Assembly (NCBI RefSeq): GCF_004363095.1
Contig: NZ_SNYO01000012.1
Location: 62,001 to 126,000, forward strand
DNA: 64,000 nucleotides
Reading direction: 5' to 3'
DNA from: Actinomycetospora succinea
Lineage (GTDB): Bacteria; Actinomycetota; Actinomycetes; Mycobacteriales; Pseudonocardiaceae
Part shown: piece after piece, positions 1-5,303 of the stretch
Layout: every line of letters starts with the position of its first letter
Numbering within the stretch: the first letter of the stretch is position 1
Notes under the pieces: model-generated
Told to the model about the DNA's origin: nothing
The model's database searches: none
What the model saw: only the letters and a program-made list of their open reading frames with translations
Program-made: the position numbers and the translations under genes

Positions 1-55
1 CCGACCTCATCCCGGCGGGCAGGCTGGTCAGACCGTCGCCGCACCGGGAGGACCC

Positions 56-646
56 GTGCACCTCACCCCGCGCGAGCAGGAGAGAGTGCTGCTGCACAGC
101 GCGGCCGAGCTCGCGCGCCGTCGACTGGCGCGCGGTTCCGTGCTGGGCGCCGCCGAGGCCGTCGCGCTCGTCTGCGACGAGATCTGCGAGCTGGCGTGGG
201 ACGGCCACGACCTCGACGACGTGGTGCGCCGCGCCCGCGAGCTCGTGGGCCCCGACCAGCTGGTCGACGGCGTCACCGCGGCCGTCCCGTCGCTGCAGGT
301 CGAGGCGCTCTTCCCCCACGGCACGACGCTCGTGCACGTGGACCGCCCGTTCGGTCCACCGGTCCCCGACGGTCCGGGCACCGTGCGGCCGGCCGCGGGG
401 ACGATCGAGCTCGCGCCCGGACGGGACCGGCACGACGTCGTCCTGCGCAACGACGGCGACCAGGCGATCTGGGTGAGCTCGCACGTCCCGCTCGACCGGC
501 TCAACCGCCGGCTGCGGGTCGACGTCGCCGACGGCGCCGACCCCGCGCACCTGCGCCTCGACATCGCCGCGGGCACGGCCCTGCGCGTGGAGGTCGGGAC
601 GACGCGCACCGCGACCGCGGTCGGCCTCCGGGGAGGGTCCCGATGA
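56..646 (+). CDS. ureAB: Urease gamma/beta fusion subunit (divergent)
   Basis: The 196-residue protein joins a urease gamma domain (about residues 1-100, opening LTPREQERVLLHSAAELA, with the family-typical EALFPHGTTLV) to a beta domain (about 105-190, ending in AHLRLDIAAGTALRVEVG). Such fusions are known, for example Helicobacter UreA. The beta motif usually written GSHYHFFE reads SSHVPLDR here, so the subunit is divergent. The GTG start has GGGAGGA a few bases upstream. The stop overlaps the ureC start (ATGA), implying translational coupling. By family it would form the non-catalytic part of an (alpha-beta-gamma)3 enzyme in the cytoplasm. The true substrate is uncertain because both this subunit and its partner depart from canonical urease. 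Confidence 0.85.
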   Translation: MHLTPREQERVLLHSAAELARRRLARGSVLGAAEAVALVCDEICELAWDGHDLDDVVRRARELVGPDQLVDGVTAAVPSLQVEALFPHGTTLVHVDRPFGPPVPDGPGTVRPAAGTIELAPGRDRHDVVLRNDGDQAIWVSSHVPLDRLNRRLRVDVADGADPAHLRLDIAAGTALRVEVGTTRTATAVGLRGGSR

Positions 647-2331
647 CCACGATGGACCGCACCGAGTACGCCCGGCTCTACGGCCCGACCACCGGCGACC
701 GCGTGCGCCTCGGCGACACCGACCTCTGGGTGGAGGTCGACGCCGACGACACCGAGCCCGGCGAGGAGATGCTCGGCGGCTGCGGCAAGACCGCCCGCCA
801 CGGCGCGCTCGTCACCGACCGGGCGCCCCGGGACAGCGCGCTCGACCTCGTCGTCCTCGGGGTCCTGCTGCTCGACCCCGTGCTGGGTATCCGGAAGACG
901 TCGATCGGGGTCAAGGACGGGCGGATCGTGGGGGTGGGCCGCGCCGGCAACCCCGACGTGCAGGACGGCGTCGAGCTCGTCGTCGACGCCCACACCGCGA
1001 TGGTGCCGGGCGAGGGGCTGATCGCGACGCCGGGCGCCGTGGACTCCCACGTGCACCTCTCCAACGCCGACCTGGCCCCGGTCGCCCTGTCCACCGGCGT
1101 GACGACGCTGGTCGGCATGGGCATCGGCGGGGTCTGGGACGTCGGCGCCAACCCCGCACCCAACCTGCACACGCTGATGGCCTCGTGGACCGGCGCGCCG
1201 GTGAACGCCGCGTTCCTCGCCCGCGGGTCGTCCGGGTCGGCGGACCTGCTGGAGCGCGCGGTGCTCGCCGGGGCGGGCGGGTTCAAGGTCCACGAGGACT
1301 GGGGCGCCGGCCCGGACGCCATCGACACGTGCCTGGGCGTCGCCGAGCAGGCCGACCTGCCCGTCGCCCTGCACACCGACACCCTGAACGAGTCCGGCTA
1401 CCTCGACGACACCCTCGACGCGATCGGCGGGCGAACGGTGCACGCGTACCACGTCGAGGGCGGCGGCGGGCATCCCGACCTGCTGCGCATCGTCGGTCGC
1501 GCGTCGGTGCTGACGTCGTCCACCACGCCCACCCTCCCGCTCACGGCGGCGACCGTGCGCGAGCTGGGGCCGATGACGATGACCGTGCACCGCGGGCACC
1601 CCGACCTGCCCAGCGACCGCAGCATCGCCGCGAGCCGCATCCGCGAGCACGCCATCGCCGCGGAGAACCGGCTGCACGACGACGGCGCCATCGCGATCGT
1701 CAACTCCGACGCGCTCGGCATGGGCCGCATCGGCGAGACCGTGCGCCGCACCTGGCAGCTCGCCCACGTGCAGGCCCACCTCGCCGGTGAGATCGGCCCG
1801 GACGTCGCGAACAACGCCCGGGTGCTGCGCTACCTGGCGAAGCTCACCCACAACCCGGCCGTGGCGCACGGGCTCGCCGGCCACGTGGGCTCGCTGCGGA
1901 CCGGGCGGGTCGCCGACATCGTGCTGTGGTCGCCCGCGTGGTTCGGCGCGGCGCCCGAGCTGGTGATCAAGTCCGGGTTCGTCGCGTGGGGTGCGGCCGG
2001 CTCGGGGTCGGGGTCGACGCGGCTCACCCAGCCCCGACGGATGCGCGGCTTCCACGGAGCGCGCGGTGACGCGCCGGCCCGCCTCGCGCACCAGTTCGTC
2101 GCCGCCGCCTGCCTCGACGACGCCACCGCCCGCGCCGCCCTCCCGACGGGGCCGCGCTACACGCCCATCGCCGGGAGCCGCGGCCTCGGGTCGGCGGACA
2201 TGCTGTTCAACACCGCCACGCCGGACGTCGAGATCCCCGGCGAGCCGTCCCCGGTGCGCGTCGACGGCCGCGAGGTGCCGGTGCATCACGCCGACCGGCT
2301 GCCCCTGACCCGCCTGCACCACCTGGGGTGA
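643..2331 (+). CDS. ureC: Urease alpha subunit-like metallohydrolase
   Basis: The 562-residue protein matches urease alpha along its length. Compared from memory with Klebsiella UreC, the nickel ligands are all present: the HxH pair in DSHVHL, the carbamylated lysine and its histidine in GFKVHEDWG, histidines in VALHTDTLNE and YHVEGGGGH, and the aspartate in NSDALGMGR. The flap motif MVCHHLD is replaced by MTVHRGHPD, which keeps the catalytic-type His but loses the flap Cys. The stretch after HxH, normally ICPQ plus a GTHATTCTPGP-like region, is unrelated. Accessory genes ureD, ureE, ureF and ureG are not visible, although the window starts only 55 bases upstream of the operon. It is either an orphan urease matured in trans or a urease-fold amidohydrolase for another urea-like substrate. 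Confidence 0.82.
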   Translation: MTTMDRTEYARLYGPTTGDRVRLGDTDLWVEVDADDTEPGEEMLGGCGKTARHGALVTDRAPRDSALDLVVLGVLLLDPVLGIRKTSIGVKDGRIVGVGRAGNPDVQDGVELVVDAHTAMVPGEGLIATPGAVDSHVHLSNADLAPVALSTGVTTLVGMGIGGVWDVGANPAPNLHTLMASWTGAPVNAAFLARGSSGSADLLERAVLAGAGGFKVHEDWGAGPDAIDTCLGVAEQADLPVALHTDTLNESGYLDDTLDAIGGRTVHAYHVEGGGGHPDLLRIVGRASVLTSSTTPTLPLTAATVRELGPMTMTVHRGHPDLPSDRSIAASRIREHAIAAENRLHDDGAIAIVNSDALGMGRIGETVRRTWQLAHVQAHLAGEIGPDVANNARVLRYLAKLTHNPAVAHGLAGHVGSLRTGRVADIVLWSPAWFGAAPELVIKSGFVAWGAAGSGSGSTRLTQPRRMRGFHGARGDAPARLAHQFVAAACLDDATARAALPTGPRYTPIAGSRGLGSADMLFNTATPDVEIPGEPSPVRVDGREVPVHHADRLPLTRLHHLG

Positions 2332-2334
2332 GAC

Positions 2335-3996
2335 GTGCACATCGACCTGCTGCTCCGGGACGCCGACGTCCACACCCTCGACGACGCGCACCCGCGCGCA
2401 CGGGCGCTGGCCGTGCACGGCGGCCGCGTCCTGGCCGTGCTCGACGACGACGAGCTGCCCGCCGGGGTGCACGCCCGCCACGTCGTCGACGCCGGCGGGG
2501 CCACCGTGGTGCCCGGGTTCGACGACGCGCACCAGCACACCGCCTGGTTCGGGCAGTCGCTCGGCGAGATCGCGCTCGGTGCGCTGCGCGATCTCGACGC
2601 CGTGTACGACGCCGTCGCGGCGCGGGCGGCCGAGCTGCCGCCCGACGCGTTCGTGGTCGGCAGCGGCTACGACGACGTCGCCCTCGGTGGCTCGCCGGAC
2701 CGGCGCGCGCTCGACCGTGCCGGCGGCGGCCGCCCGGTGTGGCTCAAGCACCGGTCCGCGCACGTGTGCGCCGTGTCGACCTCGGTCCTGGAGCGCGCGG
2801 GGGTCCTCGACGGCAGTGCCGCGATCCCCGCCGGCGGCGTCGTGGTGCGCGACGAGGACGGCGAGCCGACCGGCGTCCTCCTCGAGGCCGCGCAGGCGCT
2901 GGCCGGCGACCTGCTGCGGCCGTACTCCGTCGAGGACCTGGCCGACGCCATCGCTGCGGCCACCGCGGTGTTCGCCCGCGAGGGCATCACCCACGTCACC
3001 GAGGCCGGCATCGCCGGCGGGTGGATCGGCCGCTCCCCGCGCGAGCTCGCCGCCTACCAGCTCGCCCGGGAGCGCGGCGACCTCGCGGTGCGCGTCGACC
3101 TCATGCCGGAGACCTCGGTCCTGCGCGACACCGACGGCGGGCCGGGCCGGGGCCTCGACCTCGGCCTGCGCCCGGGCCTCGGTGACCTCGACCTGCGCAT
3201 CGGACCCATGAAGATCTTCTTCGACGGCGCCCTGAGCTCGCGGACGGCCGCGATGCGGGAGCCGTACGCGGATCGCGACCACGCGGGCTACCTCGGCGAC
3301 GACCCGGACGTCCTGCGCCGCGCCCTCGTCGAGGCCGTGGCCGGCGGGTGGTCGGTCGCCGCGCACGCCATCGGCGACCGCGCGGTGGACGTCGCGCTCG
3401 ACGCGTTCGAGGAGGCGGGCCGGCGACCGTGGCCCGGCGTCCGCCCGCCCCGGCACCGCCTGGAGCACGCCGGGGTCGTCGACGACGCCGCGCTCGCGCG
3501 CATGGCCGCCCTCGGCGTCACCCCGGTCCCCCAGGCCCGGTTCCTGCACGAGATCGGGGACTCGATGGCCGCGGCGGTCGGCGACGACCGCGCCGACCTG
3601 CTCTACCGGCACGCGTCGTTCCTGCGCGCCGGGCTGCGGGTGCCCGCGAGCTCCGACCGGCCGTGCGTCGCCGACGGTCACCCCCTGCGCGGGATCCGGT
3701 CGATGGTGCAGCGGCGCACGGCGGCGGGCCGGGTGCTCGGCCCCGAGGAGGCCGTCGACGCCGAGACCGCCCTGCGCTCCTACACCGTCGACGCCGCCTG
3801 GGTCGCCGGTGACGAGGACGTCCGCGGGCACCTGTCCCCCGGCTTCGCCGCCGACCTCGTCGTCCTCGGCGACGACCCCCTCCGCGTCGACCCCGACCGC
3901 CTCGGCGACATCGAGGTCGTCGCCACCCTCCGGGACGGGCGCGCCACCCACGGCGCGGGCGTCCTGGGCCTGCCGCCCGACGGAGACACACCATGA
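2335..3996 (+). CDS. YtcJ-type amidohydrolase (amidohydrolase family 3)
   Basis: The 553-residue TIM-barrel metallohydrolase has the usual family landmarks: the metal-binding HQH in GFDDAHQHTAWFG, the stretch MKIFFDGALSSRTAAM, HAIGDRAVD, RHRLEHAG, and the late aspartate region SSDRPCVADGHPLRG. YtcJ/NfdA relatives hydrolyse N-formyl or other N-acyl bonds, but specificity cannot be read from sequence. The GTG start lies 3 bp after the ureC stop, and its own stop overlaps the transporter start (ATGA), so the four genes form one translationally coupled operon. I infer that it acts on the same nitrogen compound, before or after the urease-like enzyme. Confidence 0.85.
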   Translation: MHIDLLLRDADVHTLDDAHPRARALAVHGGRVLAVLDDDELPAGVHARHVVDAGGATVVPGFDDAHQHTAWFGQSLGEIALGALRDLDAVYDAVAARAAELPPDAFVVGSGYDDVALGGSPDRRALDRAGGGRPVWLKHRSAHVCAVSTSVLERAGVLDGSAAIPAGGVVVRDEDGEPTGVLLEAAQALAGDLLRPYSVEDLADAIAAATAVFAREGITHVTEAGIAGGWIGRSPRELAAYQLARERGDLAVRVDLMPETSVLRDTDGGPGRGLDLGLRPGLGDLDLRIGPMKIFFDGALSSRTAAMREPYADRDHAGYLGDDPDVLRRALVEAVAGGWSVAAHAIGDRAVDVALDAFEEAGRRPWPGVRPPRHRLEHAGVVDDAALARMAALGVTPVPQARFLHEIGDSMAAAVGDDRADLLYRHASFLRAGLRVPASSDRPCVADGHPLRGIRSMVQRRTAAGRVLGPEEAVDAETALRSYTVDAAWVAGDEDVRGHLSPGFAADLVVLGDDPLRVDPDRLGDIEVVATLRDGRATHGAGVLGLPPDGDTP

Positions 3997-5303
3997 ACAC
4001 TGCACCGCAACCGACCGAGGCCGACGCCCGCCGCGTGGCCGTCGGGGCGTTCGTCGGCACCGCGCTCGAGTGGTACGACTTCTTCCTCTACGGCACCGCC
4101 GCGTCCCTGGTGTTCAACCGCCTGTTCTTCACCACCGGCGACCCCGTCGTCGCGACCCTCGCCGCGTTCGCGTCGTTCGCGGTCGGGTTCGCCGCCCGCC
4201 CGCTCGGCGGCATCGTGTTCGGCCACCTCGGCGACCGCATCGGGCGGCGCGCCTGCCTGCTGATCACCGTGGTGATGATCGGCGCGGTCACCGGGATCAT
4301 CGGCCTGCTGCCCGGGTTCGCCGACATCGGCGTCGCGGCGCCGGTGCTGCTCACCCTGCTGCGGCTGCTGCAGGGCGTCGCGGTCGGCGGCGAGTGGGGC
4401 GGCGCGATCACCCTCGCCGTCGAGCACGCCCCGCCGGGCAAGCGCGGGCGCTACGCGGCGATGCCGCAGATCGGCTCGCCGGTGGGCACCCTGCTGTCGT
4501 CCGGGGCGTTCCTGCTGGTCGCGCTGCTGCCGCCCGAGGACTTCGACACGTGGGGCTGGCGGCTGCCGTTCCTCGCGGCGTTCCCGCTGCTCGGCGTGGC
4601 CCTGTGGCTGCGCCGGCGGGTCGAGGAGTCGCCGCTGTTCGACCGCCTGCTCGCCGAGGACGCGCGCGCGTCCGCCCCGGTCCGCGACGTCGTCGCCCGC
4701 GCATGGCCGGCGCTGCTCGTGGGCGCGGGCTCGGCGTTCCTCGGGGTCGGCGGCTTCTACCTCGCCACCACGTTCGTCATCAGCTACGCGACCGGCGACC
4801 TCGACCTGCCGCGCCCGCTGGCCCTGGGCGCGACGCTCGTCGCCGCCGTCGTCGAGATCGGCGTGCTCGTCCTGGGCGGCCGGCTCGCGGAACGCTTCGG
4901 GTCCGCGCGGGTGACGGTGGTCGGCGGGCTCGCGTCCGCCGTGGTCGCGCTGCCGATGTTCTGGCTGCTCGACACCCGCAACGCCGCCGCCGTGATCTTC
5001 GGGGTGACCCTCGGCGTCGCGGCGCTGTCGATCCCGTACGCGGTCTCGGGCGACCTGCTCGCCCGGCTCTTCCCGGCGCGCGTGCGCTACAGCGGCATCG
5101 CGCTCGCCGCCAACCTCGCCGGGATCGCGTCCGGGTTCGTGCCCCTCGCCGCGACGGCGGTGCTCGCCGCGGCCGGCGGGGCATCGTGGGCCCCGGGCCT
5201 GCTGCTGGTCGGGATCGCGCTGATCACCGTGGTCAGCGGCCTCGCGGCGCCGCGCCTCTACGTCCCGGACACCGAACTGACCACCGAGGGCGTGGCGAGG
5301 TGA
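3993..5303 (+). CDS. MHS-family metabolite:H+ symporter
   Basis: The 436-residue protein has about 12 membrane segments. The MHS (ShiA/ProP-like) signature is clear: GTALEWYDFFLYGTAAS near the N terminus, then RPLGGIVFGHLGDRIGRR, and LRLLQGVAVGGEWGGA in the fourth helix region. The family imports shikimate, proline, betaine, citrate or similar small charged metabolites with protons. Placed last in the urease-like operon and coupled to the amidohydrolase, it probably imports the substrate of that pathway. The substrate itself cannot be deduced. Confidence 0.87.
   Translation: MNTAPQPTEADARRVAVGAFVGTALEWYDFFLYGTAASLVFNRLFFTTGDPVVATLAAFASFAVGFAARPLGGIVFGHLGDRIGRRACLLITVVMIGAVTGIIGLLPGFADIGVAAPVLLTLLRLLQGVAVGGEWGGAITLAVEHAPPGKRGRYAAMPQIGSPVGTLLSSGAFLLVALLPPEDFDTWGWRLPFLAAFPLLGVALWLRRRVEESPLFDRLLAEDARASAPVRDVVARAWPALLVGAGSAFLGVGGFYLATTFVISYATGDLDLPRPLALGATLVAAVVEIGVLVLGGRLAERFGSARVTVVGGLASAVVALPMFWLLDTRNAAAVIFGVTLGVAALSIPYAVSGDLLARLFPARVRYSGIALAANLAGIASGFVPLAATAVLAAAGGASWAPGLLLVGIALITVVSGLAAPRLYVPDTELTTEGVAR

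Follow-up and report, generated by a model that had tools for sequence, protein, structure and literature searches.

Urease, the textbook nickel enzyme, depends on a helper machine of its own. Accessory proteins are dispensable for the iron urease UreA2B2 of Helicobacter mustelae (PMC6737895, PMC11541087). Clusters consisting of a fused ureAB gene and ureC only were described in Streptomyces coelicolor and S. avermitilis in 2008 (PMC2492869), were counted among urease clusters in 2017 (PMC5489568), and have been called urea-utilising (PMC3293853). In the agmatine pathway, agmatine deiminase (AguA) converts a guanidino group into a ureido group, which is then the substrate of a ureido hydrolase, AguB (PMC9397018). 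Here, we describe a four-gene operon at positions 56–5,303 of a 64,000-nucleotide stretch of Actinomycetospora succinea DNA (the window; bases 62,001–126,000 of the 220,626-base contig NZ_SNYO01000012.1), starting 55 bases inside the left edge of that stretch. The operon encodes a fused urease gamma/beta-like subunit (UreAB), a urease alpha-like subunit (UreC), a YtcJ-type amidohydrolase (AH3), and a metabolite:H+ symporter (MHS). Since the nickel helpers are missing and related UreC genes lie beside guanidine-to-ureido enzymes, UreABC probably cuts a larger urea-like compound and not urea itself. While accessory-free ure(AB)C clusters have thus been published, a literature search covering only a minority of subscription journals found no report of an operon with AH3 and MHS, of the link to deiminases, or of a ureido function.

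The window system shares with nickel urease (UreABC with UreDEFG) the subunit plan, the fold, the metal ligands, and the catalytic histidine, aspartate, and arginine. It differs in that UreD, UreF, and UreG are missing from the genome, that the flap cysteine, a pocket alanine, and one pocket loop are changed, and that its UreC occupies a separate branch of the UreC tree, a clan described below. With UreA2B2 it has in common the fused small subunits (according to the entry name of structure 3qga) and helper independence, although activity of the window enzyme is a prediction. In contrast to the remodelled pocket of the clan, UreA2B2 has an ordinary pocket—with cysteine, alanine, and loop present in 3qga—and hydrolyses urea. 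The Streptomyces clusters, represented by SCO5525–5526, likewise comprise fused ureAB plus ureC only (PMC2492869, PMC5489568) and probably correspond to group IIa of the clan. In group IIa, UreC is followed by an agmatine-deiminase-family gene, whereas the window has AH3, MHS, and a PucR-type regulator. The AguA–AguB pathway (PMC9397018) resembles these loci in that a deiminase precedes a ureido hydrolase and an AguA-family gene lies beside a sister UreC; the difference is that a urease-fold enzyme would carry out the AguB step, and that AH3 stands in AguA's place in the window.

The first-pass annotation had proposed the four-gene operon and the translational coupling of its genes, and both claims are borne out: four plus-strand open reading frames receive the same names from Pfam and NCBIfam, the UreAB/UreC and AH3/MHS junctions are ATGA overlaps, and three bases separate UreC from AH3. 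Urease alpha, beta, and gamma domains all score above their Pfam cut-offs in UreAB and UreC. Against NCBIfam, UreC falls under the urease alpha equivalog cut-off (TIGR01792, 555.9 versus 680) and passes the broader subfamily model PRK13207 (659 over 354); UreAB passes urease_gam (84.0 over 82.3) and lies under the cut-off of the gamma/beta fusion model PRK13192 (164.6, cut-off 243). A structure model of UreC (mean predicted local distance difference test score 87.2, with low confidence at residues 162–164 of the changed loop) matches urease alpha chains with a template-modelling score of 0.95. UreC therefore has the urease fold and is not a member of the AguB family, AguB being a nitrilase-family enzyme; it may nonetheless work like AguB.

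For phylogenetic analysis, 150 UreC loci were retained after duplicate fetches and matches spanning fewer than 450 residues had been dropped, and merging of identical sequences left 139 rows. A single branch separates 76 accessory-free rows (58 of group I and 18 others), the clan, from 63 ordinary-side rows. In a careful tree of 60 hand-picked rows (36 of the 76 clan rows and 24 of the 63 ordinary-side rows, sequences of solved ureases not included), this split has a support of 100/99 and is present in 100% of 200 bootstrap trees. Neither of the findings that the first-pass annotation had named as fatal to its interpretation—accessory genes immediately upstream, or an alpha subunit grouping inside characterised ureases with normal urea turnover—was encountered. 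Beyond group I, the clan comprises group IIa (nine rows from eight genomes, apparently Streptomyces-like, with UreC about 48% identical to that of the window), group IIb (three rows), and group III (six rows from six genomes of one family). Group IIb lies on Streptomyces and Kitasatospora plasmids, with two of its rows annotated among nonribosomal peptide synthetase genes. At the IIb loci (L055, L165, and L166), UreAB–UreC stands beside such synthetase genes and a 2-oxoglutarate-oxygenase-like gene, accompanied by a 528-residue protein whose tested copies match nothing in Pfam or NCBIfam; group IIb is perhaps a case of a urease-fold enzyme in antibiotic biosynthesis.

The catalytic core is kept throughout. 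All six metal ligands (H136, H138, K215, H244, H270, and D356) and the catalytic residues H217, D219, H316, and R332 are present in the window UreC and invariant in 139 of 139 rows. The alignment thus agrees with the first reading of the sequence, in which the ligands were complete and the flap and substrate-side sequence divergent. At flap position 315, valine is found in all 76 clan rows, and cysteine in 58 of the 63 on the ordinary side; at position 359, glycine is found in 73 clan rows (the three IIb rows have alanine), and alanine in 61 ordinary-side rows. Loop 159–171 is nearly invariant in group I (M-G-I-G-G-V-W-D-V-G-A-N-P) and differs in ordinary ureases; group II shares part of it, and in group III most of it is gapped. 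Five positions distinguish the two sides, with at least 90% of the rows on each side agreeing; written as ordinary-to-clan changes, they are K100R, K194R, Q206A, C315V, and A359G. In the Klebsiella aerogenes urease structure, the changed positions line the urea pocket.

Profile searches at an E-value of 0.001, in which positive controls were detected, found no UreD, UreF, or UreG anywhere in the A. succinea genome (UreE was not searched for); the assembly is about 97% complete and contains one UreC. No accessory gene was seen by eye among the open reading frames of the 20 kb upstream of the operon. The possibility that UreD, UreF, or UreG is hidden upstream or elsewhere is rejected on the basis of the genome searches, and the earlier description of the operon as accessory-free thus holds for these three genes well past the DNA in which it was made. 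The UreG profile also matches Escherichia coli and other controls, probably by recognising HypB, yet it finds nothing in this genome. A first set comprises 16 genomes from the family of A. succinea in which this UreC type was found: the same nine have UreD and an above-cut-off UreG, while the other seven have neither; one of the seven (G058) gives a weak UreG-profile match under the cut-off. In each of the nine helper-bearing genomes, the helpers lie at most 4 kb from another, ordinary UreC (45–48% identity), not from this one. A second set of 21 further genomes (15 of group I and six of group III) divides similarly into ten with both UreD and UreG and 11 with neither, two of the latter (G602 and G604) with weak matches under the cut-off. 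Thus, 18 of the 37 genomes with this UreC type have neither UreD nor an above-cut-off UreG, with the reservation that the group III genomes are 84–96% complete and that genomes reached via loci carry no completeness figure.

Missing neighbours were rejected as a sole criterion, because in five of the 63 ordinary-side rows (L106, L115, L116, L123, and L186) the DNA examined likewise lacks a visible accessory gene; the L106 contig is 3.5 kb long, and that of L186 stops next to UreC. Two of the five are mycobacterial UreABC loci (L116:7000-9716 and L123:7171-9713) in whose flanking 8 kb UreF, UreG, and UreD were not found. A further one (L115:7327-9704) encodes a Helicobacter-like fused UreA plus UreB, possibly an iron urease of the UreA2B2 type.

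The operon itself recurs across Actinomycetota. Sixteen of 200 genomes of the family have a UreC at 71% identity or more, the remainder reaching at most 49% among the matches listed; of the 80 loci kept from 204 relatives, 50 have a UreC at 59% identity or more, followed by a gap down to 47%. The closest genomes are those of Actinomycetospora, and the genera with the operon include Actinomycetospora, Pseudonocardia, Streptomyces, and Geodermatophilus; a Streptomyces plasmid also carries it. Genes at the loci of relatives were called by our own scripts and partly named by eye. Among the 58 distinct group I rows, which include loci cut off by contig ends, AH3 lies within 6 kb (midpoint to midpoint) of UreC in 45, MHS in 45, and PucR in 37, which argues for gene linkage beyond chance; chance linkage is also rejected by recurrence across genera. 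The synteny suggested by the first-pass annotation as a check is thus conserved. In loci L042–L047, UreC is the best conserved operon protein (about 73–75% identity), followed by MHS (65–69%), AH3 (58–60%), and PucR (about 44–45%). A second arrangement is seen at L073:4693-7965 and L102:1408-6346, where MHS and AH3 relatives (42–47% identical) lie on the strand opposite to UreC, with a thiamine-pyrophosphate enzyme between them in L073. An allantoate-amidohydrolase gene (524 bits against a cut-off of 372) and a formamidase/acetamidase-family gene on the other strand come after the group I UreC of a Streptosporangiaceae metagenome-assembled genome (L095:2589-4883). A scan of viral contigs returned five patterned stretches, none of them a relative.

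The sister groups point to the kind of substrate. In all nine group IIa rows, the gene immediately after UreC belongs to the agmatine-deiminase family, and at least five of the eight genomes have no other match to the profile; the copies read contain an H-C-x-T-Q motif, which is functional in this family. Such a gene is near one of the six group III rows, and UreC is followed by PotA/PotD/PotB-like genes at three other loci of this group. Near ordinary-side UreC genes, AguA was found at none of the 63 loci. Although the AguA neighbour queries were taken from three of the loci themselves (L178, L182, and L170), the linkage is also supported by an independent profile. In both Nonomuraea loci of group I, a gene of the dimethylargininase/arginine-deiminase family stands between MHS and UreAB, and AH3 is missing. 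Enzymes of this family, too, convert guanidino into ureido groups. AguB scored over its cut-off in none of 31 genomes. Most simply, this pattern would mean that the ureido product of the deiminase is the substrate of the urease-fold enzyme. AH3 in the window occupies the place of the Nonomuraea deiminase and so is likely to produce a ureido compound through different chemistry, for example ring opening.

We therefore favour, at a probability of roughly one half, a urease-fold hydrolase that is matured without UreDFG and removes the carbamoyl group from a ureido compound within a PucR-controlled route of uptake and breakdown. In this route, PucR would control the uptake and breakdown of a nitrogen compound, MHS would import it, and AH3 would hydrolyse it to a ureido (N-carbamoyl) intermediate. 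UreAB–UreC, with its two-metal, carbamylated-lysine centre and reshaped pocket, would then act on the ureido group, with a primary amine, ammonia, and CO2 as the products of hydrolysis, its metal—probably iron, zinc, or manganese—being loaded without UreD, UreF, or UreG. In the sister groups, the preceding step would be that of a guanidine deiminase, comparable with the conversion of agmatine to N-carbamoylputrescine. Amine oxidase genes near the operon in six other Actinomycetospora loci and aminotransferase-like genes near four of the 58 group I rows (L104 by profile, the others by eye or similarity) lend weak support to an amine product. We infer the substrate class, the step order, the metal, the reaction of AH3, and the role of the regulator. 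The first-pass annotation had likewise proposed transport and two-step hydrolysis of a compound other than urea, urea-like or N-acyl; this is partly supported, in that such a route would agree with the remodelled pocket and with the deiminases at related loci.

Several observations weigh against this reading, in which substrate and metal are predictions. No AH3 is seen within 6 kb in 13 of the 58 group I rows. The flap cysteine is missing in five ordinary-side rows, one of which has valine, and cysteine variants of K. aerogenes urease—found among the titles of solved structures—are active. AguB-like nitrilases under the cut-off occur in all 31 genomes, the closest (G056) at 403.8 versus 410.25. 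Agmatine deiminase was not found in the window genome or in 15 of 16 group I genomes, the deiminases beside clan UreC genes score below equivalog cut-offs, AguA also occurs away from such UreC genes (G306 and G018), and the three group IIb rows and five of the six group III rows have no AguA nearby.

The main rival is a urea-cleaving non-nickel enzyme like UreA2B2, in which case an accessory-free urease would still act on free urea with iron or another metal, and AH3, or a deiminase in relatives, would set urea free in a step of its own or supply the same pool of nitrogen. The urease fold and the full catalytic set agree with this, as does the helper-free, iron-dependent activity of the Helicobacter enzyme. 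We nevertheless consider it less likely, since UreA2B2 retains the three pocket features that are all changed in the clan, since the product of a deiminase is a ureido compound and not urea, and since each of the nine genomes with helpers in the first set has an ordinary urease in addition. More doubtful still is a urease-fold enzyme that hydrolyses a different N-C(=X)-N compound (such as a guanidine, an amidine, or a biuret-like molecule) and acts before or instead of the deiminase or AH3: the remodelled pocket and guanidine-linked neighbours would suit it, but by family the guanidine group is already the target of the neighbouring deiminases, and nothing specific for a C=N substrate was seen. 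That UreC is a decayed or non-catalytic urease relative is highly improbable; the flap and pocket changes and the missing maturation genes might suggest decay, whereas metal ligands and catalytic residues are invariant in all 76 clan rows and no operon protein is better conserved.

The remaining gene assignments are summarised in Table 1. AH3 belongs to the YtcJ-type Amidohydro_3 family by PF07969, from which its hydrolase function is predicted; H-x-H, Lys, His, His, and Asp positions, which we assume to be metal ligands, are conserved in AH3 and its relatives, and a search against solved structures returned uncharacterised proteins only. MHS stays below the NCBIfam cut-offs of TIGR00883 (366.9 versus 443.45) and of a shikimate-transporter model (324.5 versus 538). 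The start codon of the divergent PucR-type regulator ends about 100 bases upstream of UreAB. Beyond the regulator, two permease genes (named by eye) and then a primary-amine oxidase gene lie about 2 to 7 kb to the left of the window (L002:12713-17859). On the minus strand, a 1325-codon open frame (28–4,005) runs antisense to three operon genes; it was rejected as a gene and taken for a by-product of high G+C content.

Table 1. Features of the operon and its regulator (window positions unless a locus is given)
Feature	Position	Strand	Evidence
UreAB, fused urease gamma/beta-like subunit, 196 aa	56..646	+	Pfam Urease_gamma 102.1 bits (cut-off 23.9), Urease_beta 52.3 (cut-off 25)
UreC, urease alpha-like subunit, 562 aa	643..2331	+	Pfam Urease_alpha 133.7 bits (cut-off 23)
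UreC loop 159-171 codons, replaced relative to ordinary ureases	1117..1155	+	alignment of 139 rows
UreC flap 311-334 codons; Val315 replaces flap Cys, His316 kept	1573..1644	+	alignment of 139 rows
UreC Gly359 codon, Ala in ordinary ureases	1717..1719	+	alignment of 139 rows
AH3, YtcJ-type Amidohydro_3 metal-dependent hydrolase (predicted), 553 aa	2335..3996	+	PF07969 296.6 bits (cut-off 29.7)
MHS-type metabolite:H+ symporter, 436 aa	3993..5303	+	MFS_1 94.9 over 33.4
PucR-type regulator, divergent, outside window	L002:18709-19857	reads away from operon	HTH_30 61.4 bits

Taken as a whole, the clan may represent a new enzyme class, a proposal to which we give slightly less than an even chance: urease-fold ureido-hydrolases whose metal centre is assembled without UreDFG and which carry out the last step of guanidine or ureide degradation, substituting for AguB-type enzymes in one actinobacterial group and forming a separate route with a YtcJ amidohydrolase in the window operon. 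If this is true, the helper machine would belong to the metal and not to the fold, and the clan would offer a natural comparison for what restricts urease to urea. Many actinobacterial genes now labelled urease, from which urea use is predicted, would then have another function.

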